A DNA stretch of 16,365 nucleotides from Pavlovales sp. CCMP2436 (taxonomy: Eukaryota; Haptophyta; Pavlovophyceae; Pavlovales), in NCBI GenBank assembly GCA_026770615.1, contig MU631368.1:166013-182377 (forward strand), read 5' to 3'. The position numbers were made by a program, and so were the translations under genes. Within the stretch, counting starts at the first letter, position 1; every line of letters begins with the position of its first letter. A model generated the notes under the pieces. That model was not told where the DNA came from. It saw nothing but the letters and a program-made list of their open reading frames with translations, and made no database searches. Positions 1 to 14,264 of this stretch are shown here, piece by piece.

Positions 1-68
<68 letters not shown>

Positions 69-105
69 TATGTATATATATATACACACATATGTATATA
101 TATAT
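1..105. repeat. TA/CA microsatellite
   Basis: Uninterrupted TA dinucleotides (about 1-58) pass into short CA runs and further TA blocks with TATGTA interruptions. It is a simple-sequence repeat of eukaryotic nuclear type and has no coding content. A similar TA/CA tract occurs at 14300-14406. Confidence 0.97.
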
Positions 106-478
106 GGCCAGTGTTCTTGTTCCGGTAAATAATTTTGGGGGCCCACACTTAAAATCCGCTTAAATTTCAAACCTAGGTTTGAAAACGGGGGCCTATGTGA
201 CGGGACGGGCGGGCGGCGTGACGGACGGCGGGAAATGGGGCCTTTGGCGGGAGATTTGAACTGGCGGCGGGGGCCGTCGGGGCCGTTGGCGGGAGGCGGG
301 GGGCCCGGCGGGGCCCGCCAAATTTTTTAGAATTTCTAATTTTATGTAACAAATTCAAATTTGGCGCAACAATCCGTACTGGTGCCGGAACAGCTCATGG
401 TCCGGTACTGGTCCGGTATTTTCTGTAGCTCGTTTCAGTACAGTAGTCATACGAGAATTCATACGAACATTGTTTAAG
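106..478. other. Non-coding flank with G-rich tract
   Basis: No convincing gene is present. Positions 190-320 are very G-rich on the plus strand and are followed by an AT-rich stretch (320-360). On the minus strand a short frame between about 470 and the stop at 355 looks protein-like and could be the displaced C-terminus of the 590-1552 gene, cut off by the inverted-repeat element between them; its phase differs, so this is only a possibility. Confidence 0.4.
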
Positions 479-688
479 CATTGTTTGTATGGTGCGAGTG
501 GTGGTTGGTGGGACCTGTCAGACAAACCTCTCCGGGGACGGCCGCGTGTCTCACCTGTCTCGTCTCTATTAATAATTTTTTTTTTTTTTTTAATGAACAG
601 AGTAAGGGGAGTCCCTCCTTTGGCACCCCCCTCCCGGGAGAGGTTTGTAAAACAGGTCCCACCAACCACCACTCGCACCAAAACAATG
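479..688. mobile_element. MITE-like element with long terminal inverted repeats
   Basis: A stretch of about 210 bp has near-perfect inverted ends of about 55 bp. The left arm (479-536) contains GGTGCGAGTGGTGGTTGGTG and the right arm (631-688) contains its reverse complement CACCAACCACCACTCGCACC. The interior is short (about 95 bp), has a run of 16 T and no coding capacity. This is the layout of a non-autonomous DNA transposon (MITE). Both outer ends read CATTGTT inward, and no clear target-site duplication is visible. The minus-strand gene at 590-1552 reads into it and stops inside. Confidence 0.75.
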
Positions 689-1552
689 ATAATTTGGCAC
701 TGGTAAATATTCTGGTAGCATCCACATCCCGAAGTGGGCCACCAGTTCGAGCATCATGTACGTGTGGGGGATGACGCGGAACTTGGGCGTCCTGGCCGTG
801 AGCACTTCCTCGATGGCTTCCGTCCAGCGCTCGAACCGCACGGCGCGGGGCCTCGGGCAGAAGTCGACCTGGTTAAGGAGCCCGCAGAGGCGGGCCGACT
901 TGTTCAGCGGACAGTGGCCGAGCGCGAGCGCGCAGAGGGCCGCCGGCGAGTGCCGCGTCTCGAAGGCCGCGTGCGCGAAGCCGAACTTGCCGGCCAACCC
1001 GGGGAACAAATCGATGGGCAACCCGGACAGCGCGTAGCTCGCCGCTGTGCTTGCGTGCAGAAGTACCCACGACGTGAAGTACCCGTCGGTCGGGATCTTG
1101 GGGAGCTCGACGGGCAGGTGCGGGAGGGGCGGCGACGAGCAGAACGAGAGAAAGTGGAAGAGCTGGATCTGGTCGAGCGAGTCGCAGTGCACCGGCTGCG
1201 AGGTCAGGAGGAACTCGAGGCTGGCGGTTCCGCACAGGTCGCGGAACACCGCGCCGTCCTCGATGCCGGTCAGCGCGGAGAGGTACTCGCGGATGGCGCC
1301 GCCGTCCTCGCTGTCGGCGCAGTGCCCGCAGAGCGCCTTGGCGAAGCTCAGGACGTCGGGGCGCAGGAGGTGCCGAACTTGCGCGTAGTGCGGGCGGGCG
1401 AGGATCGCGCGGTCCGGGTCGAACTCGTCTTGGAGGCACGCGATAGCCAGGGAGTACGGCACCGGCGGCTTCTGGCCGCGAAGGTGCCGCACGATGTACA
1501 CTTCGAAGTCTTCTGGCCGCCCCCCGAGAACCAGCACATGCGGCAGGGCCAT
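590..1552 (-). CDS. Uncharacterised viral-block protein, 3' end altered by MITE
   Basis: Open frame of 320 codons starting at the ATG at 1552. I do not recognise the family. The product is Cys- and His-containing, mostly helical-looking and without a signal peptide or membrane segment; C/H residues are scattered (for example ALCGHCADS near 92-100 and FLSFCSSPPLP near 150). The strong GC bias at third positions matches the neighbouring viral genes. The last 30 or so codons (below about 688) lie inside the inverted-repeat element, so the native C-terminus is probably lost or replaced by element-encoded residues such as ASGGWWDL. Two tandem copies of an AAATTTTCGGCCAAGC box lie just upstream. 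The plus-strand frame over the same region is a GC-driven shadow. Function unknown. Confidence 0.65.
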   Translation of the reverse strand: MALPHVLVLGGRPEDFEVYIVRHLRGQKPPVPYSLAIACLQDEFDPDRAILARPHYAQVRHLLRPDVLSFAKALCGHCADSEDGGAIREYLSALTGIEDGAVFRDLCGTASLEFLLTSQPVHCDSLDQIQLFHFLSFCSSPPLPHLPVELPKIPTDGYFTSWVLLHASTAASYALSGLPIDLFPGLAGKFGFAHAAFETRHSPAALCALALGHCPLNKSARLCGLLNQVDFCPRPRAVRFERWTEAIEEVLTARTPKFRVIPHTYMMLELVAHFGMWMLPEYLPVPNYHCFGASGGWWDLFYKPLPGGGCQRRDSPYSVH

Positions 1553-1595
1553 CGCGTCGCGTCGCGGCCCGGGCAGATATTCTCACGGCTGGCGG

Positions 1596-1630
1596 GAAAT
1601 TTTCGGCCAAGCGAAATTTTTCGGCCAAGC
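1596..1630. promoter_or_regulatory. Tandem AAATTTT-CGGCCAAGC boxes, promoter candidate
   Basis: Two head-to-tail copies of GAAATTTTCGGCCAAGC (1596-1612) and GAAATTTTTCGGCCAAGC (1613-1630) lie 45-80 nt upstream of the minus-strand ATG at 1552. The A/T tract joined to a CGG/CCG block resembles the signals in front of the other viral-block genes. The remaining spacer to 1830 contains only an ATTAATTAATT stretch and no gene. Confidence 0.5.
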
Positions 1631-1830
1631 GCCACAACCCTGTATGGATTCTGTACTAATCCGGGACTGATTGCCAAAATCACATCGCCTTCGGGAAAAT
1701 TGGGGCCGCCAAGGGGCGCCGGCCTGGAAACTAATTAATTAGTTTAATAGTTTGAGGTGACGATTAGGTTTCCGAATATCCAAGGGGCCAAAATCTCGGC
1801 ACCTCATCACTCGCGCCAAAACCACGCGCC

Positions 1831-2061
1831 ATGGACCGCGTCTGGCTGAACGAGTTCGTCGACACGGTGAACGGCGCCCTCGACCAGCTCACCCTTAAGC
1901 TCGACATCCTCCTCGACCCGGCCACGGCCTACAAGCCGCCGCCGCCTCTGCCGCTTGTGGGCCGGCCGTCCGCCTGTGTCGAGGAGGACATCGCCCCCGA
2001 GGACCAGCTCTCTACGCTGCAGGACTTCGTCAACGCGCCCGACCTCCACGCGCCCGACTAA
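1831..2061 (+). CDS. Small acidic hypothetical protein (viral block)
   Basis: A 76-residue protein in good context (GCGCCATGG). The first 30 residues are a likely amphipathic helix (FVDTVNGALDQLTLKLDILL). A Pro-rich linker (PPPPLPL, about 36-41) follows, then an acidic C-terminus. No transmembrane segment or known motif is visible. The stop codon overlaps the AT tract that precedes the next gene (2113), 52 nt downstream, so the two may be co-oriented neighbours with separate promoters. Third positions are almost all G/C, as in the neighbours. The opposite-strand frame is a shadow. Function unknown; it could be a small virion or assembly factor, with no direct evidence. Confidence 0.6.
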   Translation: MDRVWLNEFVDTVNGALDQLTLKLDILLDPATAYKPPPPLPLVGRPSACVEEDIAPEDQLSTLQDFVNAPDLHAPD

Positions 2062-2087
2062 TTTTTTATTCATATAGGGGCGCTCTC

Positions 2088-2112
2088 TTTTTTCGGGCGC
2101 GCCTCCTGAGCA
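2088..2112 (+). promoter_or_regulatory. Viral-type start signal: T-tract plus CGGGCGCGCC
   Basis: TTTTTTCGGGCGCGCC runs from 2088 and ends about 10 nt before the ATG at 2113. It nearly matches the signal before the fibre gene at 8432 (TTTTTTTTCGCGCGCGCC) and, on the other strand, that before 5989 (AAAATTCGGGCGCGCGCC). Confidence 0.55.
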
Positions 2113-2400
2113 ATGGAGGGGCTCCCCTTCGACCGCGTGCGCCGTGCGCCCCAGTCTATTGAGGAGGTCCTGGGCTTCCTGGGCATGGGGACGCCCAGCC
2201 GCCGCGCCCTGGCCTTTGCGGCCCTGGCCACCTCCGTCTCCTACGCGCTCAAAACGCCGGCCTGCTTCTTCACCGAGGAGGGCGCCATCCGCGGCTTCCA
2301 CCCCGACCCCGAATCGGCGGAAGAGCCCGAGAGCAAGACGCAGCTGCACTTCCTCTTCGTGCCCCTGGTGGCAGGCGCCGTCGGCTACGCGCTCCTCTAA
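2113..2400 (+). CDS. Small membrane protein (viral block)
   Basis: A 95-residue protein. Residues 1-30 are soluble and charged. Residues 33-47 (ALAFAALATSVSYAL) form a short hydrophobic segment, and the C-terminal 15 residues (FLFVPLVAGAVGYALL) form a clear tail membrane segment ending at the stop. Between them is an acidic stretch (PDPESAEEPESK). Small tail-anchored proteins of this kind are common in virions of large and mid-size DNA viruses, but no family is recognised here. The ATG is preceded by the conserved T-tract/GC signal. The gene is convergent with the minus-strand gene ending at 2491, with a 90-bp spacer containing ATTAATTGATTTAATT. Confidence 0.65.
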   Translation: MEGLPFDRVRRAPQSIEEVLGFLGMGTPSRRALAFAALATSVSYALKTPACFFTEEGAIRGFHPDPESAEEPESKTQLHFLFVPLVAGAVGYALL

Positions 2401-2490
2401 CGGGCGCTAGATCGGCGCCGGCTTCCCAGTGCACATCTAATTAATTGATTTAATTTCTTCTAGCTGTTCTTCTCCCGGCCGTCCGAGATG

Positions 2491-2901
2491 TCAGCACTCC
2501 GGCCGCGGGTCCGGGAGTACTGACTTGAAGGGCTCCCAGTAATCGATCTCCAGCGGCGCGCCGGGCAGCGCCTCGCAGGCCTTGATCTGCTGATACCAGC
2601 CTGCAAACATAACATCCCAGTGTTGGCGCCACCCGTTAAAGGCCTCCGGGCTGTGCTTCAAGTAGAGCGCGTCGACCAGGTCGAGGAAATGACGGCACCA
2701 TCCAAGTGCCGACGTCCACTTCCGGTTGTTGAGCAGCACCGCCGCGTACGTTTTTCCGTGGTCGGAAAACTTGTACATGGTGCGCCCCAGGGCCGTCATG
2801 AACAAGCACGAAATGCTGCTCCGGAAGGAGGGCCACTGCGGCCCTTCGTCCACAAAGTGCTTGATTGCGAACTCGACGTACATCAGGTCCTGCTCGCACA
2901 T
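2491..2901 (-). CDS. Uncharacterised 136-residue protein (viral block)
   Basis: The frame ends at 2491 and stays open upstream to about 2960, but the first ATG is at 2901 (MCEQDLMYVEFAIKHF); upstream codons in frame include only a TTG at 2946. The product is rich in aromatic residues, with several Trp (WPSF, WTSALGWCRHFLDLV, WRQHWDVMFAGWYQQ), and looks like a compact helical domain. There is no signal peptide or membrane segment, and I do not recognise the family. The usual T-tract start signal is missing upstream, so the 5' end may be truncated or the true start may lie elsewhere. It sits next to the hairpin-repeat region (2993-3240). Confidence 0.55.
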   Translation of the reverse strand: MCEQDLMYVEFAIKHFVDEGPQWPSFRSSISCLFMTALGRTMYKFSDHGKTYAAVLLNNRKWTSALGWCRHFLDLVDALYLKHSPEAFNGWRQHWDVMFAGWYQQIKACEALPGAPLEIDYWEPFKSVLPDPRPEC

Positions 2902-2992
2902 GTACTCCACCTTGCCGCCAGCAGACTGCTGGGCAGCCTTATTCAAAGATGAGCACGCAGCAAAGTCTCATTAAGTCCCTGTCTTTGGTTCG

Positions 2993-3240
2993 CAGGCATT
3001 GGCGCCTCGAGACGGCGCTGTGCGAGAAGTGTTGGTCCTATCTGTATCGCTGCCTAGCTAGCGTCAACTTCATCCCCCACTTCTACCACGCTCCCCACTT
3101 CAGGCATTGGCGCCCCGAAACGGCGCTGGGGGGGGCGTGCGATTATAATAAATATTTATCATTTATTATTTATGGTCCGATAAATGATAATGATAAATGA
3201 TAATTGATGACAGGCATTGGCGCCTCTTCACGGCGCTGGG
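2993..3240. repeat. Three spaced hairpin repeats, GCGCC-N7-GGCGC
   Basis: CAGGCATTGGCGCC followed by seven variable bases and GGCGCTG occurs three times in the same orientation: 2993-3020, 3101-3128 and 3211-3240. Spacing is 108 and 110 bp. In each copy GCGCC can pair with GGCGC. The loops differ (TCGAGAC, CCGAAAC, TCTTCAC) while the stem and the leading CAGGCATT are invariant. Copies 2 and 3 are followed by a G-rich run. The spacers are unrelated to one another. No coding frame explains them; the arrangement resembles iteron-like binding sites. Confidence 0.8.
3141..3206. repeat. AT-rich imperfect palindrome
   Basis: Between the second and third hairpin repeats, an ATTTATCATTTATTATTTAT arm can fold onto ATAAATGATAATGATAAATG across a GGTCCG centre (about 3173-3178). 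This is an AT-rich island in an otherwise GC-rich block. With the flanking repeats it is a candidate DNA-unwinding element. Confidence 0.65.
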
Positions 3241-3395
3241 TGGGGCGAGCGAGCTGCGCTTTATCGCAGCAACCCGCCAATTCCGAGCACGCGCGCAACT
3301 TAGCTGTCTAAGGCAGCTGCGGACACGCAAGGACTCCGGTACGCTTGTTTATAATATAAATAATTAATTAATGGTAGTTTATTAATGATAGTTAG
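3241..3395. other. Non-coding spacer
   Basis: No gene seen. The left half is GC-rich with a small CTGTCTAAGGCAG inverted repeat near 3305-3317. The right half is AT-rich (TATAATATAAATAATTAATTAATGG, about 3350-3375) and ends at an in-frame stop at 3393. Confidence 0.4.
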
Positions 3396-3569
3396 TCGAG
3401 CTCCCATTCAATTTGCCCCCCCCCACCCCCCACCCCCCACTCCCTGCTCTTCCTCTCTGACCTGCTCGTCCTATGGGGCGACCTCAAGGCGGCGGGGGCG
3501 CAGCAGGCGGGTCTGCTCACGCGCCTCGACTTTGACGCCTTCTGCGCGTTTGCCTACCGCTTCAGTTGA
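3396..3569 (+). pseudogene. Truncated 3' coding remnant
   Basis: The frame closing at the TGA at 3567-3569 has strongly coding-like sequence for its last 44 codons (LLFLSDLLVLWGDLKAAGAQ, then LLTRLDFDAFCAFAYRFS), with G/C third positions like the viral genes. It has no ATG and runs upstream into a C-rich tract (3416-3440) that interrupts the gene, reaching a stop at 3393. I read it as the C-terminal stub of a lost viral gene, perhaps cut by expansion of the C-rich repeat. Family not recognised. Another frame across 3385-4188 is a shadow. Confidence 0.45.
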
Positions 3570-3670
3570 GATGAGTTTGGAGAGGATTCTCATGCTCCGG
3601 CGCGGCGCGTCCAGGTCAATGGCCTGCGCGCGCGAGTCGCCCGGCCGAACCATTGCTGAGAGCGCGCCCG

Positions 3671-3718
3671 AATTTTTTACTCGAGCCTATGTTTTTTCTG
3701 GGGCCGCCTGTAAAGAAC
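3671..3718 (+). promoter_or_regulatory. Two T-tract start signals before 3719
   Basis: GCGCGCCCGAATTTTTTA ends near 3679, and TTTTTTCTGGGGCCGCC lies at 3692-3708. The second is 10-27 nt before the ATG at 3719 and closely resembles the signal before 5586 (TTTTTTCTGCCGCG). This favours 3719 over the earlier in-frame ATGs. Confidence 0.5.
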
Positions 3719-4045
3719 ATGGCCCAGATCGCCGCCGGATCGCTCGCCCTCGGCATGGCCGTCGAGTACGCCCGCCCCTCGCTGCCACCCGCCCTGCTCA
3801 ACACGAGCCTCATGGGCGGCGGGACCAAGCAGGGCGTCGCCATGTTCGGAGCCGCCGCGGTCGTCGTGGCCGCCGCTGCCTACCCGGCCCCGGTCGCGCC
3901 GCTCACCTTCATGCTCGCGCGGTACACGGGCTCGGGCTCCTCCCTCATCACGGCGGGCGCGCTCGGCGCGCTCTACTACGCGGGCTCCACTATGGTGTAC
4001 GACATGGTCATGGACGCCATCGGCCCGGCGGCGGTCGTCGCGTGA
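3719..4045 (+). CDS. Gly/Ala-rich multi-pass membrane protein (viral block)
   Basis: A 108-residue protein starting MAQIAAGSLALGMAVEYA. Upstream in-frame ATGs exist, but they precede or overlap the T-tract signal. Hydrophobic segments lie at about 4-18, 42-62 (AMFGAAAVVVAAAAYPAPVA) and 75-95 (SLITAGALGALYYAGSTMVY), giving two or three membrane spans with many small residues, the style of a minor virion membrane protein. The frequent GxxxG-type spacing would suit tight helix packing. No family is recognised. It lies 100 bp upstream of the VLTF-3 gene on the same strand. Confidence 0.65.
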   Translation: MAQIAAGSLALGMAVEYARPSLPPALLNTSLMGGGTKQGVAMFGAAAVVVAAAAYPAPVAPLTFMLARYTGSGSSLITAGALGALYYAGSTMVYDMVMDAIGPAAVVA

Positions 4046-4144
4046 CCGTAATTCTAAGTTGTCTGGCCAGATTCGATGCTAGGTTTGCTTTAAAAAAATC
4101 TGGGGCTGAATTCAAGGAGCTAAAATTTCGCCGGCCGTTGGACC

Positions 4145-5248
4145 ATGGGGAAGCGGCGCGTGCCTGCGCGCGATGTGCCGGCGATTAACCAGGCGCGCCT
4201 GGACGAGCTGCTGCAGGGCGGCGACCTGTGCGAGGGCGACATGGGCGATCTGTTTGCACTGCTTCGTGGCCGTGGTACTGACGCTGAGCAGCGAGGAGAC
4301 CAGTGCAGCGAGTGCGCTGGCCCGGTGTATCTCGATCCTGAGCGAGCTCACCACTTCTGCAGCGAGTGCTCCCTAGTCCAGTCCCCGCGCTACCACTTCG
4401 CCGACTGCTACGAGGACAACGAGCGCATCACGTGCCCGCCGCGCGAGGGCTACAAGCCGGTGCACCACCTCCACGAGCGCCTGGCGCAGTACCACCTGTT
4501 GGAGACGAGCATCTGCCCGGCCGACTGGGCGACCATCGTCGAGCGCCTCCTCTTCGAGCGGCCGGCCGTGCTCGACAAGGAGTCGGTCCGCCGGCTCATG
4601 CGCAGGTGCAACCTGCAGCGCTACAACGAGAGCTGGCTGCAGGTCATCAACCGCGTGACCAAGTACCGGCCGCCGCCCATCACGCAGAGCGAGACGCTGC
4701 TGCTCGCGCGCATCTTCGAGGGCGTGCAGGAGCCCTTCCGGCTCTTCAAGCTGCACGCGCGCAAGAACCTGTTGAACTACAACTTCATGCTCTTCCGGCT
4801 GCTGCAGCTGCTCGGGCGCGACGACGCGCTGCCCCACTTCCCCCAGCTCAAGACGCGCGGCAAGTGGGACGAGCTCGACCGCGTCTGGGGCCTCATCTGC
4901 GAGTTCCACGGCTGGGCGCACCCGCCCGTCGACCTGGCCGCCTTCCAATGGCTCAGCGTGCCGCTCGGCGCCGAGGTGTGGCCGCGCCTCGAGGCGGACA
5001 TGCTGAGCGCCACGTGGGCCGCGCTCGAGATCGCCGAGGCGGCCAGGGCGCTGCCCGCCCACCTGCGCGGCAACCAGCCGGGCTACAGCGACCGCCGCCT
5101 CCTGCGCGAGATGGCCGCGGTGCGCTGCGAGCAGCAGATCATGAGCACGATCCGGCAGGATAACGCGTCGCGCCCGGCAGCACCGAGGCGCCCACGCTCG
5201 GCACGTACTGTCGCACGTGCACTCCGAGCTCGGAAGACAGGAGCGTGA
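4145..5248 (+). CDS. VLTF-3-like late transcription factor
   Basis: This 367-residue protein matches the nucleocytoviricot/poxvirus VLTF-3 family, which drives transcription of late (virion) genes. A zinc ribbon is formed by two CxxC pairs, C54/C57 (CSEC) and C72/C75 (CSEC). The family core follows at about 100-256: EGYKPVHHLHERLAQY, then the helical region with ESVRRLMRRCNLQRYNESW, VINRVTKYRPPPIT, the hallmark FEGVQEPFRLFKLHARKNLL, the NYNFMLFRLLQLLG helix, and LPHFPQLKTRGKWDELDRVW. An extra basic tail of about 105 residues follows (PAAPRRPRSAR) and overlaps the converging gene 5139-5516 by 110 bp. The start ATGG is preceded by AAAATTTCGCCGGCCG. The gene is intronless and full length. It is the best evidence that this block is viral. 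The family call is from residue patterns I recognise; no search was run. Confidence 0.88.
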   Translation: MGKRRVPARDVPAINQARLDELLQGGDLCEGDMGDLFALLRGRGTDAEQRGDQCSECAGPVYLDPERAHHFCSECSLVQSPRYHFADCYEDNERITCPPREGYKPVHHLHERLAQYHLLETSICPADWATIVERLLFERPAVLDKESVRRLMRRCNLQRYNESWLQVINRVTKYRPPPITQSETLLLARIFEGVQEPFRLFKLHARKNLLNYNFMLFRLLQLLGRDDALPHFPQLKTRGKWDELDRVWGLICEFHGWAHPPVDLAAFQWLSVPLGAEVWPRLEADMLSATWAALEIAEAARALPAHLRGNQPGYSDRRLLREMAAVRCEQQIMSTIRQDNASRPAAPRRPRSARTVARALRARKTGA

Positions 5249-5516
5249 GGCGGTCGGTGAGGCCCGGCTGCGTGACGAGGTGCGCCCAGATGAACATGAG
5301 GCCGCCGGTCGGGTCGCGCCCGGAGCGGTTGAAGAGCCACATGCCGGCGGCCACGGAGCAGCCGTTCAGCACGGACTGCAGCGTGGCCAGCGCGAGGGTC
5401 TGCTCGAGGGGCTCGAGGTCGCCCAGCGGCGGGATGGCCTGGTTGATGAGCGTGCCCATGAGCACCCCGCCGATGGACTGGGCCACGGTGTAGGTCGCGG
5501 CGTCGGCGATGGACAT
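5139..5516 (-). CDS. Small membrane protein converging on VLTF-3
   Basis: A 125-residue protein starting MSIADAATYTVAQSIGG. Residues 10-30 (TVAQSIGGVLMGTLINQAI) and 42-62 (ALATLQSVLNGCSVAAGMWLF) are hydrophobic, and a weaker segment (GGLMFIWAHLV) lies near 72-82; the C-terminus is soluble. It looks like a two- to three-span virion membrane protein, similar in style to 3719-4045. Its 3' end overlaps the VLTF-3 coding end antisense by 110 bp, so one of the two tails may be less constrained. The upstream signal, read on the minus strand, is AATTTTCGGGGGCGG about 15-25 nt before the ATG, shared back to back with the 5586 gene. Family unknown. Confidence 0.62.
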   Translation of the reverse strand: MSIADAATYTVAQSIGGVLMGTLINQAIPPLGDLEPLEQTLALATLQSVLNGCSVAAGMWLFNRSGRDPTGGLMFIWAHLVTQPGLTDRLTLLSSELGVHVRQYVPSVGASVLPGATRYPAGSCS

Positions 5517-5530
5517 AGATAGAGTCCGCC

Positions 5531-5570
5531 CCCGAAAATTAGGCTCAGTCGTGCTCTAAGTTTTTTCTGC
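5531..5570. promoter_or_regulatory. Back-to-back viral start signals
   Basis: The 69-bp gap between divergent genes holds two copies of the T-tract/GC motif. CCCGAAAATT (5531-5540) faces the minus-strand ATG at 5516, and TTTTTTCTGCCGCG (5561-5574) faces the plus-strand ATG at 5586. Distances to the ATGs are 15-20 nt in both directions. Confidence 0.5.
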
Positions 5571-5585
5571 CGCGAGCAGTAGCGG

Positions 5586-5813
5586 ATGATAGTCTGCCCA
5601 CTAGTGCTGTCCCTGATCGCCGCGGTAGCCGGCATCTCGACCGCCGCGTGGAACATCATCCAAATTGTGCACCGGAGAGAGCTCTTGAAGGTCTCCGACG
5701 ACGACAAGGGCGCCGCGGCGACCGTCATCCAGCGCGCCTACCGCCGGCACCGCACCAAGTGCTTCAAGTACGGCGCCTTCTGCTTCACGCTCGAGGACGA
5801 GTACCTGCGCTGA
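5586..5813 (+). CDS. Small membrane protein with IQ-like motif
   Basis: A 75-residue protein. Residues 1-25 (MIVCPLVLSLIAAVAGISTA) form an N-terminal signal anchor or membrane span, followed by a charged region (RRELLKVSDDDKG). Residues 47-58 (ATVIQRAYRRHR) match the IQ calmodulin-binding pattern (I/L/V-Q-x3-R-x3/4-R/K). A Cys-containing, aromatic C-terminus follows (CFKYGAFCFTLEDEYL). IQ motifs bind calmodulin or EF-hand light chains; that this one does so is inference. The start ATG follows a T-tract signal by 19 nt. It is divergent from 5516 and convergent with the small gene 5816-5989, with stops 2 nt apart. Confidence 0.7.
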   Translation: MIVCPLVLSLIAAVAGISTAAWNIIQIVHRRELLKVSDDDKGAAATVIQRAYRRHRTKCFKYGAFCFTLEDEYLR

Positions 5814-5815
5814 GC

Positions 5816-5989
5816 TCACAGAAGGCCGTTGCTGTAGCGCGACGTCACCGCGGTCTTCGCGCGCTCGAAGTCGTCGGCCGTCGGCTCGTAGGTGCGCAGG
5901 CCGGGCACCTCGGCAACGCTCAGCTTGTCGAGCACGCGCTGCACCGACGACTTGTGCGCGAGCGCGCGGTCGGTTGCGCGTGTCTCCAT
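5816..5989 (-). CDS. 57-residue hypothetical protein
   Basis: A short minus-strand gene starting METRATDRALAHKSSVQRVL and ending SRYSNGLL. Support comes from the context: AAAATTCGGGCGCGCGCC lies just before its ATGG, the same signal as its neighbours, and the stop falls 2 nt from that of the convergent IQ-motif gene. The product is soluble and helical, with several basic residues and a likely coiled or amphipathic first half. No family is recognised. It is too short for most gene callers but fills the only gap in this part of the block. Confidence 0.6.
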   Translation of the reverse strand: METRATDRALAHKSSVQRVLDKLSVAEVPGLRTYEPTADDFERAKTAVTSRYSNGLL

Positions 5990-6002
5990 CCCAGGCGCGC
6001 GC

Positions 6003-6018
6003 CCGAATTTTATTTATC
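6003..6018 (-). promoter_or_regulatory. T-tract/GC start signal for the 57-residue gene
   Basis: Read on the minus strand it is AAATAAAATTCGGGCGCGCG, ending about 10 nt before the ATG at 5989. It is the minus-strand counterpart of the signal before 2113. Confidence 0.5.
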
Positions 6019-6035
6019 AGCTAGCGCTCGAACTT

Positions 6036-6113
6036 GACCAGCTAGAACTTAGACCAGCTTAGACCAGCTAGAACTTAGACCAGCTTAGACCAGCTAGAAC
6101 ACCAGCTAGAAGC
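6036..6113. repeat. 26-bp tandem repeat abutting a stop codon
   Basis: The unit GACCAGCTAGAACTTAGACC + AGCTTA occurs twice in full (6036-6061, 6062-6087) and partly a third time (6088-6100), with a further CCAGCTAGAA at 6102-6111. It contains AGCT and CTAG palindromes. The last copy includes the stop codon of the capsid-like gene (6106-6108 on the minus strand). Confidence 0.85.
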
Positions 6114-6894
6114 GCACCGCGTGCAGGCGGATCCACATGTGGAAGCGCGCCGCCTTGATCGTGGCCCCCTTGCGGTCGACCAGCCGGGGCGTGATGGTGG
6201 AGATGGCCGGCAGCGGCGAGCTGAACGTCGTCTTGGCGAACCCCTCCGGCAGCCACACCATGGCGTCGCGCGAGTCGTTCCAGCTGGAGGGGTGGTAGGC
6301 CGGCATGTGCGTCGGCAGCACCGCGAGCATGCGCTCCATGTTGCGGTTGCTCGACTGGATGTTGCCCGGGATCTCGTTGATCTCCAGGCCGATGTAGTCC
6401 TGCTGCGGCTCGCCCGTGACGCCCTCGTACAGGTTGCCCGAGGAGAGCCCGCAGAAGGCGTAGGCGCGCACCTCGCAGGCGGTGATCATCTTGAAGCGGC
6501 CCAGCAGCCGGAGCGGCCGCGGGATCCACTCGCGGACCAGCTGCATGCGGAACTGGTCGGCGTGGTCGAGGATGAGCGGCGCGTCGATGCGCACGCTGAA
6601 CGCGCCGCCCGAGTTCACGATCATCTCGCGCACAAACATGTAGTCGGTCACCGTGTTGGACACGTCCGAGACGAAGCGCACCACCGAGTCCACCTTGACG
6701 TTGCTGAAGAGCAGGTCCTCGCCCGTGTAGACGCCCTGGTTGTCCCACATGTCGATCGTGCTCGTCGCGGTGGGCTCCAGCCGCGAGCCCGTCATCACAC
6801 GCCCGCAAGTGACCTCGTCCGCATCGTACTCCACGTCGGTGATGTAGAGGTTGTGCACCAGGTCGCTTGACGACGTGGGCGGGTTGTCGCACAT
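6106..6894 (-). CDS. Putative single-jelly-roll capsid (penton-like) protein
   Basis: A 262-residue protein, MCDNPPTSSSDLVHNLYITD to HMWIRLHAVRF. It is rich in beta-prone segments with few charged helices. Suggestive features are LEINEIPGNIQSSNRN (about 172-187) and the C-terminal run FSSPLPAISTITPRLVDRKG followed by a hydrophobic strand (RFHMWIRL); the pattern 'PL..IS.....LVD..G' followed by a strand resembles the C-terminal strands of jelly-roll penton and capsid proteins of polinton-like and giant viruses. The length suits a penton-like single jelly roll and is too short for a double-jelly-roll major capsid protein (usually 400-600). An AAATTC tract lies about 24 nt before the ATG. The capsid call is inference from composition and context; no fold prediction was possible. 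Confidence 0.5.
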   Translation of the reverse strand: MCDNPPTSSSDLVHNLYITDVEYDADEVTCGRVMTGSRLEPTATSTIDMWDNQGVYTGEDLLFSNVKVDSVVRFVSDVSNTVTDYMFVREMIVNSGGAFSVRIDAPLILDHADQFRMQLVREWIPRPLRLLGRFKMITACEVRAYAFCGLSSGNLYEGVTGEPQQDYIGLEINEIPGNIQSSNRNMERMLAVLPTHMPAYHPSSWNDSRDAMVWLPEGFAKTTFSSPLPAISTITPRLVDRKGATIKAARFHMWIRLHAVRF

Positions 6895-6942
6895 GGCCGC
6901 GCTCAGAGGGCACGTCAGAATTTACGCACGCAGTCCGGCTTG

Positions 6943-8370
6943 TCACCACCCGCCAGCCCCCCCCCACGACGCGCTATTCCACCCGCTCGTGTTCGGGCGA
7001 AACGTAAGACCCAGCTGCACGGCTGGGATTTTTGGCTTGAACTTGGGCGGCGTGGGCCGTCTGGGGGGGGTGCGCGGTCGAGCGGCCGGTTCGGTCGGCC
7101 TTGGCGCGTCGCCCGAGCACCTCTTGCTCTCCAGGCGCCAGCAGGTGCTGTTGTTCTGCGGCGCCCAGCCCCCGGGGCAGTTCTTGGGCTTGGAGTGGTA
7201 CTCCTTGCAGCCCGGGGTCTTGGTGTTGCGGCAGCCGTAGTTGCCGTGGCCGCCAGTCGGCACCCAGCCGCCCGGGCAAAGTGCGAAGAGGCCGTTGCGG
7301 CTCTTCCTCTCGTAGTCGTGCCGCTTCTTGCAGCCGCCCCGCTCGCTGCCCCGGGACTGCGTACGGCGGCACATGGCGCCGGCGTTCGACGTGCCGTCCG
7401 GGCAGTGGCAGCTCTTCGGGTTGACGAGCGGCTGGAACGCGTCGGCGATCTGGTCGACGACGTCCTGGGTCCCCGACTTGACCTCGTCGACTATGTCCTC
7501 CACGAGGGGCGCCAGCGTCTCGCCGGTCGTGGCCGGGTTGAGGATCCGCAGGACCGTCTCGGCCTGGGCGCGCTGCTCGGGCGTCTGCGCGACCAGGTCG
7601 GCCAGCGAGCCGCCCAGCCCGCCCACGACCACGTCGCCCACCATCGCGCTGCCCATCGACGCGAGGTACGCCGACGCCGCGAGTTCGCCCTGCTCGCGCC
7701 GAATGATGGCCGCGCGCGCCTGGTGCATCGCAAGGGCCGTGTCGACCACCGCGACGATCTCGACGGGCGCCGTGGCGATCGACGCGACGGCGTCCAGGGC
7801 GCCGTCGGCCAGCCCCTTCTCCACCGAGCCCTCGGTCAGGTCGGCCGTCAGCTCGCTCAGCGGGTCGTTCACCGCGTCGGCCGCAGCGGTGAGCTCGGTC
7901 TGCCGCGCCACGTACAGCTCGAGCTGCCGGTTCTGCTCGGCGCGCTTGAGCAGCTCCTCGGCCTGGCTGCGCAGCTTGTCGTTGGCCAGCTCGCTCAGGT
8001 CGCCCGCCAGGCCGAGACTCGCCAGGCCGCCGCCCAGCTTGCCGATGGACGCGGTGCCGTACTTGGCGAGCGCGCCGCCCGACGCGCTCAGAATGGCCTT
8101 CTGCCCGCCCTTGGACGCGAGCACGAGCGCGGCGTCGACCCCGATGGCGCCCGCCGCGTAGGGCACCATGGTCTTGAGCATATCGCCGATCTGCTCGGCC
8201 AGCGAGTTGGGCACCGGGGCGGCCGGAACCATCAGCTCGCCGTTGTCGACCAGGGCCAGGTCGGCTTCCGGGTCGGCTAGGGGCTCGGCCGCCTGCTCGA
8301 GCGACAATATGTAGAAGCCCATGCCCAGGCTCGCGGCCACGAAGCCGCCGACATAGTACGCGGTGCGCAT
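6943..8370 (-). CDS. Membrane-anchored Cys-rich protein, divergent from fibre
   Basis: A 475-residue protein with the start chosen at 8370 (MRTAYYVGGFVAAS); an in-frame ATG 23 codons earlier lies beyond the T-tract signal. An N-terminal membrane span (about 4-22, YYVGGFVAASLGMGFYIL) precedes an Ala/Leu-rich, mostly helical region (30-310). Residues 317-422 form a Cys-rich module with three related units: CHCPDGTSNAGAMC, CPGGWVPTGGHGNYGC and CPGGWAPQNNSTC, each followed by a basic stretch and another Cys. The tail is Pro/Arg-rich (RPRTPPRRPTPPKFKPK) and ends in a Trp/Gly-rich peptide (WNSASWGGAGGW). It is likely a virion surface or membrane protein with disulphide-stabilised repeats. It shares a 61-bp divergent promoter with the fibre gene. 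The long plus-strand frame opposite it is a GC shadow. Confidence 0.7.
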   Translation of the reverse strand: MRTAYYVGGFVAASLGMGFYILSLEQAAEPLADPEADLALVDNGELMVPAAPVPNSLAEQIGDMLKTMVPYAAGAIGVDAALVLASKGGQKAILSASGGALAKYGTASIGKLGGGLASLGLAGDLSELANDKLRSQAEELLKRAEQNRQLELYVARQTELTAAADAVNDPLSELTADLTEGSVEKGLADGALDAVASIATAPVEIVAVVDTALAMHQARAAIIRREQGELAASAYLASMGSAMVGDVVVGGLGGSLADLVAQTPEQRAQAETVLRILNPATTGETLAPLVEDIVDEVKSGTQDVVDQIADAFQPLVNPKSCHCPDGTSNAGAMCRRTQSRGSERGGCKKRHDYERKSRNGLFALCPGGWVPTGGHGNYGCRNTKTPGCKEYHSKPKNCPGGWAPQNNSTCWRLESKRCSGDAPRPTEPAARPRTPPRRPTPPKFKPKIPAVQLGLTFRPNTSGWNSASWGGAGGW

Positions 8371-8431
8371 CTCGCTGGACGGCTCGAAAGTTTTTTTAGT
8401 AGAGTGTTTTTTTTCGCGCGCGCCTCGCACA
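8371..8431. promoter_or_regulatory. Divergent promoter between membrane protein and fibre genes
   Basis: TCGAAAGTTTTTTTAG (8384-8399) lies 15-28 nt from the minus ATG at 8370, where it reads AACTTTCGAGCCG. TTTTTTTTCGCGCGCGCC (8407-8424) lies just before the plus ATG at 8432. Both fit the T-tract/GC signal of the block. Confidence 0.55.
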
Positions 8432-10324
8432 ATGTACAACGTACCGAGGCCGGCCTACACGCTCCTGCGCCCCTACGCGCGCAAGTTTGCGAGCGTCTTC
8501 ACCCAGTCCCTCGAGACCGTGCAGACCGAGCAGGCCGATATCACCGACCTGTCCGTCGGCGGCAAGACGCTGCTGAGCGCGGCCGTGAGCACCGGCAACA
8601 ACGGCCTGCGCAGCGACGAGACGGAGGCCGTCGCCTACTTCAACTACGCGTCGCTCGCCAACCGCGCCTGGCCCGACGGCTCCAGCAACGCGGTCACCAC
8701 GGGCACCTACGCGATTCCCTACTCGAGCGTGGGTGTGTCCGTGCCCGGTGATGCGGCCATTTGCCTGCTCAAGGACGCGGCGGGCACGGTGCTCTCCGGT
8801 GACGATACGCTGGGGGCCGTCGCAATCCAGTTCGACTACGCGGTCGGCCAGTTTGGCTGCATCGCTACAGTCGGCGACCCTGAAATGGGCGTGGAGCTGC
8901 CGGCGGGCTACACGGTGCCGCACGCCTACGCAGTGCTCATGGACGTGGGCATCGGCGACCCGGCACTGGGCAAGGTGAAATTACAGGTCTTCGGGCCGAC
9001 CGGCTACACGGGCGTCGCGGAGTGGGAACTGCCGACCGGCACGGAGTCGGGCGCGCTCATCACGGTTGTGCTACAGGAAGACGAGCCCGTGTGCTGGCTG
9101 GACAACGTGCCGCTCGACCCGGAGACGGCCTTCCCGGCAGTCGCGAACGATACGTGGTCGCTGACCAAGCTCTACAGCCTGCAGCCAGGAACGGTGCCCC
9201 TGCGCCTAGGCGGCTTGCCCGTGGGGATCAGGGACGGCAGCGCCTTCAACGCCACGCCGGCCGCCTTCTCCAGCCTGCGCGTGCACTGCAAGGCGCGCAC
9301 GCTCGGCATCCAACTCTCGCCCGCGCTCGTGTCCGCCGCGCAACACGCCTCGAGGCTCGCGCCCAACGTGCAGCTGGGGAGCAACACGGAGCTGGGGGCG
9401 AATTTAATGGTGCGCGGGTCGGCCACGTTCACGGACCGCGTGTATCTGCCCGAACTGACCTACATCGGCGAGACGCTGATCAGCGAAATCGGCCCGGCAA
9501 AGGTGGCTGTCACGGGCTGCACGCCGTCCGACTCATGGCTCGTGACAACGGACAATCCGGTCGGCCAGCTCCAAGCCCACGTCACTGCGGCCTACGACCC
9601 GGCCACCGCCGAACTCTTGGCGGCCAAAGCGAACCCTATGTTCACCTCGAATAACACAATCGCAACGAGCGTCGACTGGCCCGACGCAGACGGCTGGCTC
9701 GTCAGCGCCAGCTCAACATACCCCTCGAGCAACCCTTATCAAACTGCTTACCACGTATTCAATCAGATTGACACCCACGGCGACGTTTGGATGTCGAACG
9801 GAGGGTACAGCAATAATGTCGGGGCTCAATGGGTCCAGCTCCAGTACCCCTACGCGGTGGCCTTGAGGTCGTTCACCATCACCGGGACAAACAATAATAT
9901 GCACGAATTCACGATCAGTGCCTCCAACGACAACTCAAATTTCCTAGACATCCAATCGTACATAACAACAAACCACGATTCTCCCTACAATTTCGCAGTG
10001 ACCACGGCGCACATTCCGTACAGGTACTGGCGGATGACAATCACCAAGACCCACAGCTCTACTACTGTGCAATTCAACGAGTGGCGGCTGTATACGGGGT
10101 GGTCGGCCGGTCGTATCGACCACGCAGATTTTCAAGGCCCGCTGCCGCCTGCGCCCGCGCCTTCGTTCGCCGCCGCTATATTTGCCGCCGCCACTGCCTT
10201 TGCTGTTGCCTTCTCCCCGGCGATGCCCGTGATGCGACCGATGCCAATAACTCGGCCTCGGCTCGAGCGAGACGAGCCCGGCTGGCATCGTCCGAGCACG
10301 GCCCGCTCGCCTGCCGCTGCTTGA
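8432..10324 (+). CDS. Fibre-like protein with C-terminal discoidin (F5/8C) domain
   Basis: A 630-residue protein with the start at 8432 (MYNVPRPAYTLLRPYARKFA) after a strong T-tract signal. Residues about 40-310 are beta-rich and Gly/Thr-rich. Around 325-350 a fibre-like stretch occurs (LGANLMVRGSATFTDRVYLP). Residues about 425-558 look like a discoidin/F5-8 type C carbohydrate-binding domain: SASSTYPSSNPYQTAYHVF, WMSNGGYSNNVGAQWVQLQY, LRSFTITGTNN, FTISASNDNSNFLDI, and YRYWRMTITKTHSSTTVQFN ending in EWRLYTG. In viruses such domains sit on fibres that bind host glycans. The last 70 residues or so are Ala/Pro-rich, low complexity and overlap the host exostosin gene antisense (10176-10324), so the native end may be near 10,110 and the tail host-derived. 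There is no signal peptide or membrane span. Confidence 0.75.
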   Translation: MYNVPRPAYTLLRPYARKFASVFTQSLETVQTEQADITDLSVGGKTLLSAAVSTGNNGLRSDETEAVAYFNYASLANRAWPDGSSNAVTTGTYAIPYSSVGVSVPGDAAICLLKDAAGTVLSGDDTLGAVAIQFDYAVGQFGCIATVGDPEMGVELPAGYTVPHAYAVLMDVGIGDPALGKVKLQVFGPTGYTGVAEWELPTGTESGALITVVLQEDEPVCWLDNVPLDPETAFPAVANDTWSLTKLYSLQPGTVPLRLGGLPVGIRDGSAFNATPAAFSSLRVHCKARTLGIQLSPALVSAAQHASRLAPNVQLGSNTELGANLMVRGSATFTDRVYLPELTYIGETLISEIGPAKVAVTGCTPSDSWLVTTDNPVGQLQAHVTAAYDPATAELLAAKANPMFTSNNTIATSVDWPDADGWLVSASSTYPSSNPYQTAYHVFNQIDTHGDVWMSNGGYSNNVGAQWVQLQYPYAVALRSFTITGTNNNMHEFTISASNDNSNFLDIQSYITTNHDSPYNFAVTTAHIPYRYWRMTITKTHSSTTVQFNEWRLYTGWSAGRIDHADFQGPLPPAPAPSFAAAIFAAATAFAVAFSPAMPVMRPMPITRPRLERDEPGWHRPSTARSPAAA

Positions 10325-12289
10325 TGGAGACCTCATTTTGCACGCGCTTCATGCCGGGCGTGACGCACTCACTCTGGCGCAGCGAGTATCGCTCGCGGGC
10401 CCATTTGCGAACGGCGTCGCTCGCGTCGTACGCCAGTCGGCTGCGGAATCCGCAATGGACATCCGGCGAGAGCGGGTGGCGCTCCACCCGCGCGCTCAGC
10501 TGGCTGCGCAGGAAGGCGGCCTCGAGCAGCAAGTTCTCGGCAACGCGACTTGCGCCACCAAAAGGCCGCGAGAGCACATCTCTCCCGAAGTGCGCCATGA
10601 GCTCGCGGGCGCGTGTCCGCCTGCGCACATGGTTACAGAATACAGTGATAACTGTACAGTGTCACATACGGAGCTTGTGGTGTGCGGCGAGGCGGAACCG
10701 GCTGTTGCAGGATGTCATCGGCATGGGGCACTAGTCACTACAGCGGTCAATATCGCAAAGGCGTTATTACTTACCGCTCGTCAGGCCACTCTCGGAGGAC
10801 GTGGCGCAGCGCATCGCCCGGGTTACATTTAGCTCTGAGCTCGCCCAAGTGGGCCTGCGGCACGCGGCGGCGGGGGGGGGGTTGTGAGTCCGCGGGCTCG
10901 TTGGCGGGCGGCGGTTCACAAGCGGAAGCCCGGCCGCAAGCCGAGCGGGGCGCCGCGCGTACGCTTAGGTGCTCCCACGGCACCCAGCACTGGAACGGCA
11001 CTGCAACTGTGAAGACCGGGTCGCTGACAAAGATAGGAATCGCCCCGAACCCGAAGCCGCTCGTCACTCGGTTCGAGCCGGGGCGGTCGCCGCGCAGGGC
11101 AAGTAGAAACTCGGCGCGCGATGCGAGGAGCTCTTCTTTCCCGAATTTCCCCTGGCACACCAGCTTTGTCACCGTGCCCCAGTCCACGCCTGGTGGGCAC
11201 TCGGGCAAGCAGTGCCGCTGCTTTGAGGTGTCCACGAAAATTGCGCTTCGTTCAAGGCAGATAGAAGAAGGCAGATAACAAGTCAGAGCGGGTAAATGTG
11301 AGACGAAAAAGCAGATAGTAAGTGACAGGGCAGACAGAGTGTTCTCCATATCTCCGGGGAAGGCCATCGGTCTCGAAGAGCGTGTGGGCTCGCTCTCGGA
11401 AACATTGACGCACGACGTACCCCTGGTGATATAAATTTCAATATCAGTTGGTTTTGAGCGCAACGAGTGTATCAATATCAACCCCGGCACAACGAGTGTT
11501 GTGCCGTATATATATTAATACCTGGTGATACATATTGGCGTGTGTCTGGCCGCCATACCAGAAGGTCAGGTTCCTCGGAGCCGTAGGGTTGATGGCCGTT
11601 GAAGCGGCCTGGTCAAAGTCGGGCAGCATCAAGCTCGCGAGCCACGGATCCGAGGGCGAGATGCCGTTGTGTTTGCCAACCATGTAGCTCGCCCAAAGGG
11701 CATCCTTAAACGCCGGGGTCGAGGACGGGCTGGCGAACACGCCGTTGTGCGCGATGACGTGGTCTTTACGGCGCGCAGCCCACAATGGGCTGTTGTACAC
11801 TAGGTCCAGTGTGCGCGCCGTGATGGTGCTGTTCTCGCCAGCGCACACCTCGTCTAGGCCAATAGCAACGGGAATGACAATGAAAGCCGCGGCTTCCGGC
11901 CGCGACACACGCCAGCGGTGCCGCCTCAGCTGCAGGGCGAAGTACGCCGCCGTGTAGAGATATGGCCCCATGTGGCGTTCCGCCGTGCACCTCTCGAATT
12001 GCGCCAGTATGGTGGCCAGTGGCATATCTGCGAAGTCGTACATATAGAACGGCACGGCCTTCTGGGTCGCGCGAAGCTCCTCGGACGCCGCGATGAGCTC
12101 GGACGCAGTCCAGCTTAGGTCGAGCGGCGGGAAGCGAGCCGAAAGGGAACCCGCAGACTCGCCTGGTTGCCTCCCTCCCACCGATCCCGGCGGGAGCGTG
12201 GGCAGGTACTCGCGCGGGATCGGGATGGGTTGGGTTGCAGTAGAGCGCACGAGCACCACGAGCCCGAACACTAGCGGGAATGTGCGCAT
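10176..12289 (-). CDS. Exostosin-family (GT47) glycosyltransferase, about five exons
   Basis: Host-type spliced gene. Exon 1 (12289-11522, 256 codons) has a signal peptide or anchor (MRTFPLVFGLVVLVRSTATQ) and the exostosin start VPFYMYDFADMP, then FERCTAERHMGPYLYTAAYF and FIVIPVAIG. Intron 1 is 11521-11423 (CAG|GTATTA, CACCAG|G). Exon 2 from 11422 (GYVVRQCFRERAH) ends near 11336. Exon 3 from about 11220 holds the C-terminal donor-site region: LLALRGDRPGSNRVTSGFGF, then GAIPIFVSD and VPFQCWVPWEHLS. A possible in-frame intron is 10962-10855. Exon 4 ends at 10775 (GCG|GTAAGT), and intron 4 to 10621 rejoins in phase with an exon that stays open to 10176. The intron 2 boundaries are approximate. 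Exostosins add sugars in the Golgi. The 3' end overlaps the viral fibre tail antisense. Another GTGAGT donor at 10372 leaves the true end open. Confidence 0.75.
11423..11521 (-). other. 99-bp intron flanked by a 10-bp direct repeat
   Basis: Both splice junctions lie within TATCACCAGG on the minus strand: TATCACCAG|GTATTAAT at the donor and TATCACCAG|GGGTACG at the acceptor. Inside is a perfect hairpin, CGGCACAAC-GAGT-GTTGTGCCG (11485-11506). The intron is phase 0. Short, uniform introns with target-site-like flanks are typical of introner insertions; that origin is inference. Confidence 0.6.
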
Positions 12290-12520: not shown

Positions 12521-12904
12521 TCATTCCGAGATCTGAGAGCTTCCAGGAAAGAGCGAATTTGAGCGTTTCGCGAACCTGGTGAACCGGACCAGCCCAGCCC
12601 CGTAAGCAGCAATCCGGCGCTTTTCAGATGGGTTCACTGCGTGTGTGCTCGACGGGTAGCCACACTGCGACGCAGCCCACGATGCGTCCCTGACAGTGAA
12701 GTCATTGGGCTGCGTACGATGCACCTCCCGCGGGCGCCGGCCGCGAGCAGGCTGGACGGCACGCCAAAGCGCGCCGTACATCGATTCTTTCATCGGATTC
12801 CGGGCCTCAATCGGACTGGCTTGTTTGTGATACTCGATTGCGCTTTTTTTTAATAATAGTTCTGTTAATGTCCCCCGACTTGCAGCCCGAAGGCGTACGG
12901 GCAT
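12521..12904 (-). CDS. Hypothetical ORF beginning in a dispersed repeat
   Basis: A 127-codon frame. The first 20 residues (MPVRLRAASRGTLTELLLKK) lie inside the dispersed repeat and are conserved in its second copy at about 14.9 kb (MHVRLLAASRRTLKELLL). The remainder (for example VHRTQPNDFTVRDASWAASQ) is rich in Arg and Ser, without membrane spans or a recognised motif. Codon bias is weaker than in the viral genes. It could be a degenerate transposon-encoded protein, an exon, or chance. I do not recognise it. Confidence 0.3.
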   Translation of the reverse strand: MPVRLRAASRGTLTELLLKKSAIEYHKQASPIEARNPMKESMYGALWRAVQPARGRRPREVHRTQPNDFTVRDASWAASQCGYPSSTHAVNPSEKRRIAAYGAGLVRFTRFAKRSNSLFPGSSQISE

Positions 12905-14181: not shown

Positions 14182-14264
14182 CTGGTTGGGGGGTACGATC
14201 AGTGGGGGGAAGGGAGGGGGGGGAGACAGTCAGTGGAGGGGGTCCAAGGATAGCAATCGGACTC

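Follow-up and report, generated by a model that had tools for sequence, protein, structure and literature searches.

The window analyzed here, a 16,365-nucleotide stretch of contig MU631368.1 from the haptophyte Pavlovales sp. CCMP2436, places a compact run of virus-like genes beside an algal gene. It raises the question of what kind of virus left these genes, and whether they are a decayed remnant or one end of a larger insertion. The profile-based gene identities, their synteny, the number of copies and a host flank are all directly observed. On their basis the window most likely carries the right-hand terminus of a small double-stranded DNA virus of the mriyavirus kind, closest to the "Gamadviridae," that is integrated here as a provirus or a fossil.

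Layout of the block and its junction with host DNA

The viral block represents about 8 kb of one element copy, at about 2.1 to 10.1 kb of the window. The features are as follows.

1..102: simple repeat of TA/CA, bordering the N run left of the window
425..562, + strand: short inverted duplicate of the p590 gene end (inverted repeat 490-541 / 629-680)
590..1552, - strand: p590, 320 aa, ORF of unknown function, same gene family as p2491
2113..2400, + strand: p2113 (c28), 95 aa, small membrane-like protein, from sister-copy homology
2491..2901, - strand: p2491, 136 aa, ORF, unknown
3689..4045, + strand: p3689 (c4), 118 aa, small membrane-like protein, gene immediately before VLTF3
4145..5248, + strand: VLTF3, viral late transcription factor 3, 367 aa, PF04947
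5139..5516, - strand: p5142 (c3), 125 aa, conserved protein whose frame overlaps the end of VLTF3
5586..5813, + strand: 75-aa ORF with an N-terminal TM-like segment, extra between c3 and p6106
6106..6894, - strand: p6106, 262 aa, jelly-roll candidate, from sister-copy homology
6943..8370, - strand: p6943 (c6), 475 aa, Cys-rich C-terminus, from sister-copy homology
8432..10324, + strand: discoidin-type fibre-like protein, 630 aa, F5_F8_type_C and PHROG 16348
10111..10771, no strand: right virus-host junction zone, from the end of viral homology to the end of the second exostosin ORF
10771..12289, - strand: exostosin (GT47) gene of the host, with two or more exons (11444-12289 and inside 10771-11367)

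As the preliminary description had it, the block is compact and GC rich. Its ten frames (p590, p2113, p2491, p3689, VLTF3, p5142, the 75-aa ORF, p6106, p6943 and the fibre) encode 75 to 630 aa, and third-position GC is 0.84 to 0.98 in nine of them, the 75-aa ORF being left out of the codon-position scoring. The many small membrane proteins once claimed were an overstatement: a simple hydropathy scan gave one TM-like stretch each in three small proteins (p2113, p3689 and the 75-aa ORF) but none in p5142. Seven window genes (p3689, VLTF3, p5142, p6106, p6943, the fibre and p2113) have homologs that are again found side by side at other sites of the genome, such as on contig C52, and this synteny shows the block to be more than a chance assembly of frames.

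The c4 gene has homologs upstream of VLTF3 on seven other contigs (C107, C371, C95, C52, C103, C407 and C84; 41 to 56% identity), and c3 is 67 to 84% identical to its sister copies. The c28 protein is 70% identical to that of C84 and 61% to that of C52; in C84, C52 and C103 its gene comes right after that of the fibre, and homologs are also present in L019, L022, L024, L028, L042 and L047. The p6943 protein, 64% identical to the C84 copy and 43 to 52% to other copies, some of them partial, is probably a virion or envelope protein. The 75-aa ORF gave no tblastn match at 1e-4; it may be the counterpart of sister gene c9, judging by the same location between c3 and p6106 and a common IQRAY stretch found by eye. 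At the left, p590 matched nothing in Pfam or PHROG and has relatives on six other contigs. On C210, a p590 relative is followed by a p2491-like part in an open frame of equal length (308 aa). In the window p2491 converges on c28, as does a 34%-identical piece in C423. The inverse second copy at 425..562 matches p590 residues 271 to 318 at 47% identity (tblastn), and a repeat search found the two repeat arms to be 90% complementary.

The discoidin fibre reported earlier held up, its F5_F8_type_C match (3.4e-6, 27.6 bits) lying just under the cut-off of 28.2 and a match to PHROG 16348, of unknown function, covering the same region at 1.7e-12. Homology of the fibre stops at 10090-10117, and the codon-position GC pattern is gone after 10111. 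Judged from these patterns, the fibre gene is cut at its right end, and the frame then continues into other sequence near 10111. The missing C-terminus was sought left of c28 and not found there. The neighboring exostosin gene was likewise correctly recognized. Profile positions 5-171 fall on 11444-12289 (1.5e-4) and positions 227-281 on 10771-11367 (1e-4), each below the Pfam cut-off alone; the two pieces are collinear on the minus strand in different frames, and the gene is therefore spliced or interrupted.

Such a junction could in principle be a chimeric assembly, in which a viral contig was misjoined to host sequence. The window does start where an N run stops, and of 11 element copies looked at, 9 contain N runs within the stretches examined. 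However, no N run interrupts the window itself, so that the sequence from fibre to exostosin is unbroken, and one or more of five family markers can be found on at least 50 of the 703 contigs of this 119-Mb genome (counts here and below are lower bounds). A misjoin is very improbable.

VLTF3 and the jelly-roll candidate

The VLTF3 gene is real, as first described: it matches PF04947 with an E value of 2.3e-20 and 73.4 bits against a cut-off of 25, and a TFIIB-like zinc ribbon lies ahead of that region at a subthreshold 0.018. A PDB sequence search returned weak matches, mostly zinc-finger proteins (best 0.02). Counting the window copy, VLTF3 has at least 16 matches on at least 15 contigs of the genome, and there are 16 homologs outside it. 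Scans of viral_contigs with VLTF3 and MCP and searches of phage records found no relatives. One VLTF3 relative, P0002 (mmetsp source), is named as a transcript and is 98% identical over 56%; because its source is a transcriptome, transcription seems to occur from some copy or from a related virus.

In a tree of 12 of the 15 VLTF3 contigs (C114, C51 and C347 left out) and 15 of the 16 outside homologs, the window copy groups with other genome copies and outside homologs; a grouping with unrelated sequences, which would have refuted the first interpretation, was not seen. It joins P0001 with support of 89/97, below the starred level. P0002 was left out because, judged by eye, its frame diverges beyond about residue 205; four genome rows (C84, C407, C103 and C480) are partial, and X stands for the stops present in five rows. 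Since the tree holds no named mriyavirus, giant virus or polinton sequences, the choice among virus kinds rests on gene content.

The jelly-roll call on 6106-6894 did not gain support. Searches of p6106 against Pfam, PHROG and PDB sequences were empty, and a single-sequence AlphaFold2 model had a pLDDT of 35. The gene is widespread, with at least 21 matches on at least 16 contigs including the window copy, and we propose that it encodes a minor capsid protein.

Absent core genes and the left edge

No capsid, ATPase, primase or integrase match was obtained in the window with profile scans of 10 of its 29 listed ORFs, and six-frame genome searches for MCP, RuvC, HUH, D5_N and DUF5906 placed nothing within it, in agreement with the earlier statement that no MCP, ATPase, primase/helicase or integrase is visible. 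Matches to MCP, RuvC and HUH are absent from contig C62 altogether. That the window is without MCP, ATPase, RuvC, HUH and YqaJ in what was scanned is an observation that runs against a mriyavirus reading.

Two accounts of these absences had been offered, a decayed endogenous copy and one end of a larger insertion. The second is favored, with the core genes perhaps within the N run left of position 1, and it gains from the extent of the family's genes, which occupy no less than about 21.6 kb of C52 and about 24.5 kb of C103. The first would have the window copy lose its core genes by deletion and persist as a mere fossil. RuvC, which precedes c4 in sister copies, is missing at that place; c28 sits on the block's opposite side, in the surroundings of p2491 and p590; the fibre is truncated on the right; and many sister copies are partial or carry stops. 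For the window's own genes, though, decay is not borne out: the five compared are open over the full length of their homologs. Pairwise dN/dS against C84 or C169 was 0.33 to 0.43 for VLTF3, p6106, c3 and c28, but 0.73 for p6943, while p6106 gave 0.22 to 0.33 against four sister copies at 78 to 86% identity, values that come from chosen stop-free copies and mostly reflect evolution before integration. The N run, which may be a gap or a withheld piece of sequence, measures 14,636 bases and could hold the missing core genes, roughly 10 kb, and so their absence from the window does not establish decay. We regard loss by deletion as possible, but doubtful.

Sister copies and the affinity of the element

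Genes that bear on the kind of virus are found in the sister copies. Their major capsid protein (MCP) matches PF16903 (6.5e-11) and PF04451, of the Pfam "large eukaryotic DNA virus" type, and its profile matched 11 distinct PDB sequences, all named capsid proteins and including that of PBCV-1 (best 6e-25). An A22 RuvC (PF04848) occurs on at least 13 contigs. There is also a YqaJ nuclease (7.5e-20; PHROG RecE-like, 1.2e-24), and DUF5767 (1.1e-9); the window contains neither the RuvC nor the YqaJ gene. The sister-copy ATPase is probably of the A32 type, with the C28 protein scoring 0.0015 and 18.5 bits against Pox_A32, below the cut-off of 22.8, and the N-terminal part on C103 scoring 0.15; Walker motifs were recognized by eye in the sister-copy ATPase.

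A further sister-copy protein of about 1,100 aa carries rolling-circle HUH/YxxK motifs in its C-terminus. The spacing between HFH and YVKK, which fit the published HUH motif definition, is 79 residues in P0046 and in P0047 and 73 in P0048, and both motifs are kept in the two genome copies aligned over that part. Pfam, PHROG and PDB gave no support beyond one chance PDB match (0.33), and the AlphaFold2 pLDDT was 35.5. By motif, this protein is a candidate HUH endonuclease. Its matches lie on at least 29 contigs (42 of 66 candidates scored), and on 13 of these it is the sole marker of the five. It is the most widespread of the five markers among the matches listed, although the long query may ease its detection.

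The preliminary description had left mriyavirus-like and polinton-like affinities side by side. Polinton-like viruses and virophages are of a similar size class, integrate in many copies in protists and typically have fibre-like genes, all of which would suit a polinton-like virus or virophage with a captured VLTF3 gene. They differ from the present element in capsid family, VLTF3, RuvC and YqaJ. The sister-copy capsid falls in the large-eukaryotic-DNA-virus family and is not of the Preplasmiviricota type, DUF5767 is present as well, and neither an integrase nor a protein-primed polymerase was found among the selected ORFs of the copies scanned. A polinton-like origin is accordingly very unlikely. 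Because the sister copies have a large-DNA-virus capsid, RuvC, YqaJ, a probable A32-type ATPase and an HUH-motif protein, their predicted gene content favors the mriyavirus-like affinity.

Within that kind, the "Gamadviridae" and the Pleurochrysis sp. endemic viruses have haptophyte hosts, as here, and the endemic viruses have a small double-stranded DNA genome of about 35 kb. "Gamadviridae" (PMC11253617) and the sister copies have in common MCP, VLTF3, an A22-like RuvC, a PDDEXK nuclease and, probably, the packaging ATPase, and the long protein ending in an HUH motif pair has the same architecture here by motif. Published accounts give an HUH endonuclease in all Mriyaviricetes, genomes of 35 to 45 kb, an SF3 or SF2 helicase in 55 of 60 published representatives and VLTF2 in all gamadviruses. 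Among the features of Mriyaviricetes, VLTF3 was found in the window, and MCP, RuvC and PDDEXK in sister copies only; the SF3_hel2, VLTF2, short HUH protein and SSB of "Gamadviridae" were not found. Unlike "Gamadviridae," the present element is integrated in many copies; the two are likened here by gene content and description.

These differences might instead mark a distinct small-NCLDV lineage, sister to but outside Mriyaviricetes, that shares VLTF3, MCP, ATPase and RuvC and is without the SF3 helicase and VLTF2. DUF5906 (SF3 helicase) has at least 16 genome matches, none in the family's gene clusters (on C107 it lies 55 kb from VLTF3, on C347 beside a divergent VLTF3), and D5_N has at least 4, that on C4 being about 135 kb from a capsid fragment; the helicase search is limited by N runs and model choice. 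The HUH protein is assigned by motif alone, and the aligned outside relatives of the capsid form one group at 58 to 71% identity and a second at 29 to 33%. Against this, the gene set with its long HUH-type protein otherwise fits the published gamadvirus core (PMC11253617), the VLTF2 model (Pox_TAA1) matched nowhere, controls included, and the absences are weak because N runs partly hide the copies. A separate sister lineage is therefore unlikely.

A mriyavirus-like element of the preferred kind might work as follows. A genome of at least about 25 kb would be replicated by rolling circle from an HUH endonuclease nick, and RuvC and the YqaJ-type exonuclease would process the replicated DNA. VLTF3 would turn on late (virion) genes, the ATPase would package DNA into a double-jelly-roll capsid with p6106 as a putative minor part, p6943 and the small membrane proteins would be components of the virion membrane, and the discoidin protein could be a fibre binding host surface sugars. 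Illegitimate joining would probably be the route by which copies reach host chromosomes, since the ORFs scanned contained no recognizable integrase.

Integrated small NCLDV elements, PaeNCLDV and PgeNCLDV, have been reported in the haptophyte nuclear genomes of Phaeocystis antarctica and P. globosa, which belong to another haptophyte order; they are yaravirus-like and 47.4 to 53.6 kb long (PMC12480563). On that published evidence the present element is a further member of a known, recently described kind of virus, whose hosts it probably extends to a new group of algae. What is notable here is the copy number, with pieces on dozens of contigs. These pieces in one algal genome would extend the range to the haptophyte class Pavlovophyceae and form a record of repeated colonization, and so many copies of one family would allow study of what the HUH nuclease does in replication or integration.

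A bolder reading, which we consider quite improbable, is a separate dwarf nucleocytovirus lineage resident in pavlovalean algal genomes and spreading in a Helitron-like manner by its own HUH nuclease. Three observations touch on such spread: the wide distribution of the HUH gene among the matches listed, the lack of an integrase in the ORFs scanned, and the different element parts that copies keep. Gene order also varies among copies. Relative to the HUH gene, the YqaJ-DUF5767-ATPase-MCP block stands before RuvC in C84 and after c28 in C103 and C52. Circular permutation was weighed as an account of these differences and set aside as too strong, because the change of order between C84 and C103 or C52 is a block move and not a pure rotation.

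VLTF3 and the host boundary

Profile searching of the window ORFs against Pfam placed the VLTF3 call beyond doubt (PF04947, E = 2.3e-20; 4145-5248, + strand), as the preliminary description had proposed. Nine further open frames of 75 to 630 amino acids surround it. Codon-position scoring of nine frames, of which VLTF3 is one, gave third-position GC of 0.84 to 0.98. The 630-amino-acid protein had been described as a discoidin fiber; it matched PHROG 16348 (1.7e-12), and its discoidin domain scored slightly below the Pfam cutoff. Homology of the fiber with sister copies, the other loci of this viral family in the genome, ends at 10090-10117 and the codon-position pattern disappears beyond 10111, which places the end of the viral block at about 10111. 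The next gene is indeed the exostosin gene previously said to adjoin the block, present as two collinear minus-strand pieces in different frames, each alone under the Pfam cutoff.

The jelly-roll candidate p6106 (6106-6894) gave no profile match and no PDB sequence match. One conserved gene separates it from VLTF3, and in Pleurochrysis endemic virus 2 the minor capsid protein and VLTF3 have adjacent gene numbers, 23 and 24 (PMC11253617). This proximity weakly favors a minor capsid role for p6106.

Repeats occur on both sides of the boundary. A 42-nt unit is found three times, spaced 108 to 110 bases, at 2993-3252 between p2491 and the small conserved gene c4 (3689-4045, +), and a 26-nt unit forms a perfect tandem pair at 6036-6087 between the 75-amino-acid ORF and p6106. 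On the host side, repeats in 12844-14925 recur in the sequence that flanks the element elsewhere in the genome, at loci L009, L014, and L020.

Gene content and classification

The major capsid protein (MCP) of the sister copies matched Capsid_N (6.5e-11), and on contig C169 Capsid_NCLDV exceeds its cutoff. Aligned with 17 outside homologs, it matched 11 distinct PDB sequences, every one named capsid protein, that of PBCV-1 included. A related capsid protein, P0041, is assigned in public data to a Planctomycetaceae MAG, into which a virus contig was probably misbinned. Sister copies also encode a YqaJ nuclease (7.5e-20), DUF5767 (1.1e-9), RuvC (Pox_A22 profile), and a probable ATPase, in which Walker motifs are visible on inspection and which matches Pox_A32 below threshold (0.0015). 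The biggest gene of the element encodes a protein of ∼1,100 amino acids with three outside relatives, 30 to 66% identical to the query. Common to these relatives, near the C terminus, is HFH followed 73 or 79 residues on by YVKK, which matches the mriyavirus endonuclease signature, HUH plus Yx2-3K; the long architecture is as in gamadviruses (PMC11253617). Neither profile searches nor folding backed an HUH domain in this protein, which we call a putative HUH endonuclease on its motifs.

At the family level, four features of Mriyaviricetes were found (MCP, VLTF3, RuvC, and PDDEXK); the ATPase leans toward a further one, and HUH is present as a motif only. Helicase searches gave 16 matches to DUF5906, all of them outside the gene clusters of the family, and four to D5_N; the VLTF2 profile matched neither the genome nor the controls. 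No polinton-like features were seen among the ORFs scanned. Of the two options raised earlier, mriyavirus-like and polinton-like, the element is quite probably the former, judged by gene content. Membership in Mriyaviricetes is, on that content, the likeliest placement but not proven.

This kind of virus is already known. Phaeocystis has published endogenous yaravirus-like NCLDVs of 47 to 54 kb (PMC12480563), recovery of gamadviruses is said to have been primarily from P. antarctica genomes (PMC13335480), and Pleurochrysis endemic viruses have been described (PMC11253617). Our literature searches found no report of such elements for Pavlovales; what is new is how many copies there are and the order to which the host belongs. 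Among outside homologs, the capsid protein P0045, named "Pavlovales sp. CCMP2436," shows 95% identity over 14% of the query, and P0002, a transcript-named protein from source "mmetsp," shows 98% identity over 56% of VLTF3. CCMP2436 is among the MMETSP transcriptomes in a 2017 table of NCLDV core-gene homologs (PMC5294986). We take the host to be a pavlovalean haptophyte, probably CCMP2436 itself or a close relative.

Copy number and lineages

Searches of the genome (119 Mb, 703 contigs) for five family markers gave the following counts. They are minimum figures, in which short fragments are counted, as are two contigs whose VLTF3 matches are weak (C51 and C347).

Matches to five family markers in the genome
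VLTF3: 16 matches on 15 contigs
MCP: 28 matches on 20 contigs
RuvC: 13 matches on 13 contigs
p6106: 21 matches on 16 contigs
HUH-type protein: 45 matches on 29 contigs

At least one marker was present on 50 of the 703 contigs, at least two on 20, and all five on 3; C62, the contig that holds the window at 166013-182377, has two. Flanks were examined, in part, for ten other VLTF3 loci, and C52 carries homologs of seven window genes together. The fiber gene, single in the window and in C84, is duplicated in tandem in C52, where one of the two copies is partial (L022:3741-6769), and C103 has about three copies (L024:3667-7047). C347:35417-36635 combines a divergent match to VLTF3 with a match to the SF3 helicase DUF5906, ∼0.6 kb away and on the same strand; the pair may belong to another small NCLDV-type element, distinct from this one.

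A VLTF3 phylogeny, the check named in the preliminary description, comprised 27 rows (12 genome copies and 15 outside sequences, the latter unnamed homologs). All 12 genome rows grouped with outside sequences P0001 and P0006 (100/100) against the 13 others. The window VLTF3 pairs with P0001 at a support of 89/97, which does not reach the starred level. The VLTF3 of C84 pairs with that of C169 (100/97). Eight copies with short branches form one group (100/99) that has P0006 within it on a long branch, and the C480 copy stands apart. The groupings suggest several old lineages or arrivals, together with one later expansion.

State of the window copy

Genome profile and homology searches gave no match to MCP, RuvC, or HUH on readable C62. 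Directly left of window position 1 are 14,636 N, either a gap in the assembly or withheld sequence, and the missing genes, an estimated total of roughly 10 kb in sister copies, could therefore lie in that run; the 5.4 kb beyond it had no match to reference genes. We favor the window as one end of a larger insertion, with decay of the copy a less favored possibility. Its gene order is altered, with c28 (2113-2400, +) left of VLTF3, and p2491 (2491-2901) and p590 (590-1552), which are one gene family, occupy the place of YqaJ or RuvC. When the window genes were compared with their counterparts on C84 or C169, pairwise dN/dS was 0.33 to 0.43 for VLTF3, p6106, c3 (5139-5516, -), and c28 and 0.73 for p6943, and that of p6106 against C52, C103, and C407 was 0.22 to 0.24; much of the selection behind these values will predate integration.

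A p2491-like piece also adjoins c28 in C423, which suggests that p2491 arrived with the virus. Members of the p590/p2491 family are found on seven other contigs (C210, C53, C19, C321, C670, C407, and C423) and, among the loci seen, stand beside genes of this viral family only on C62 and C423.
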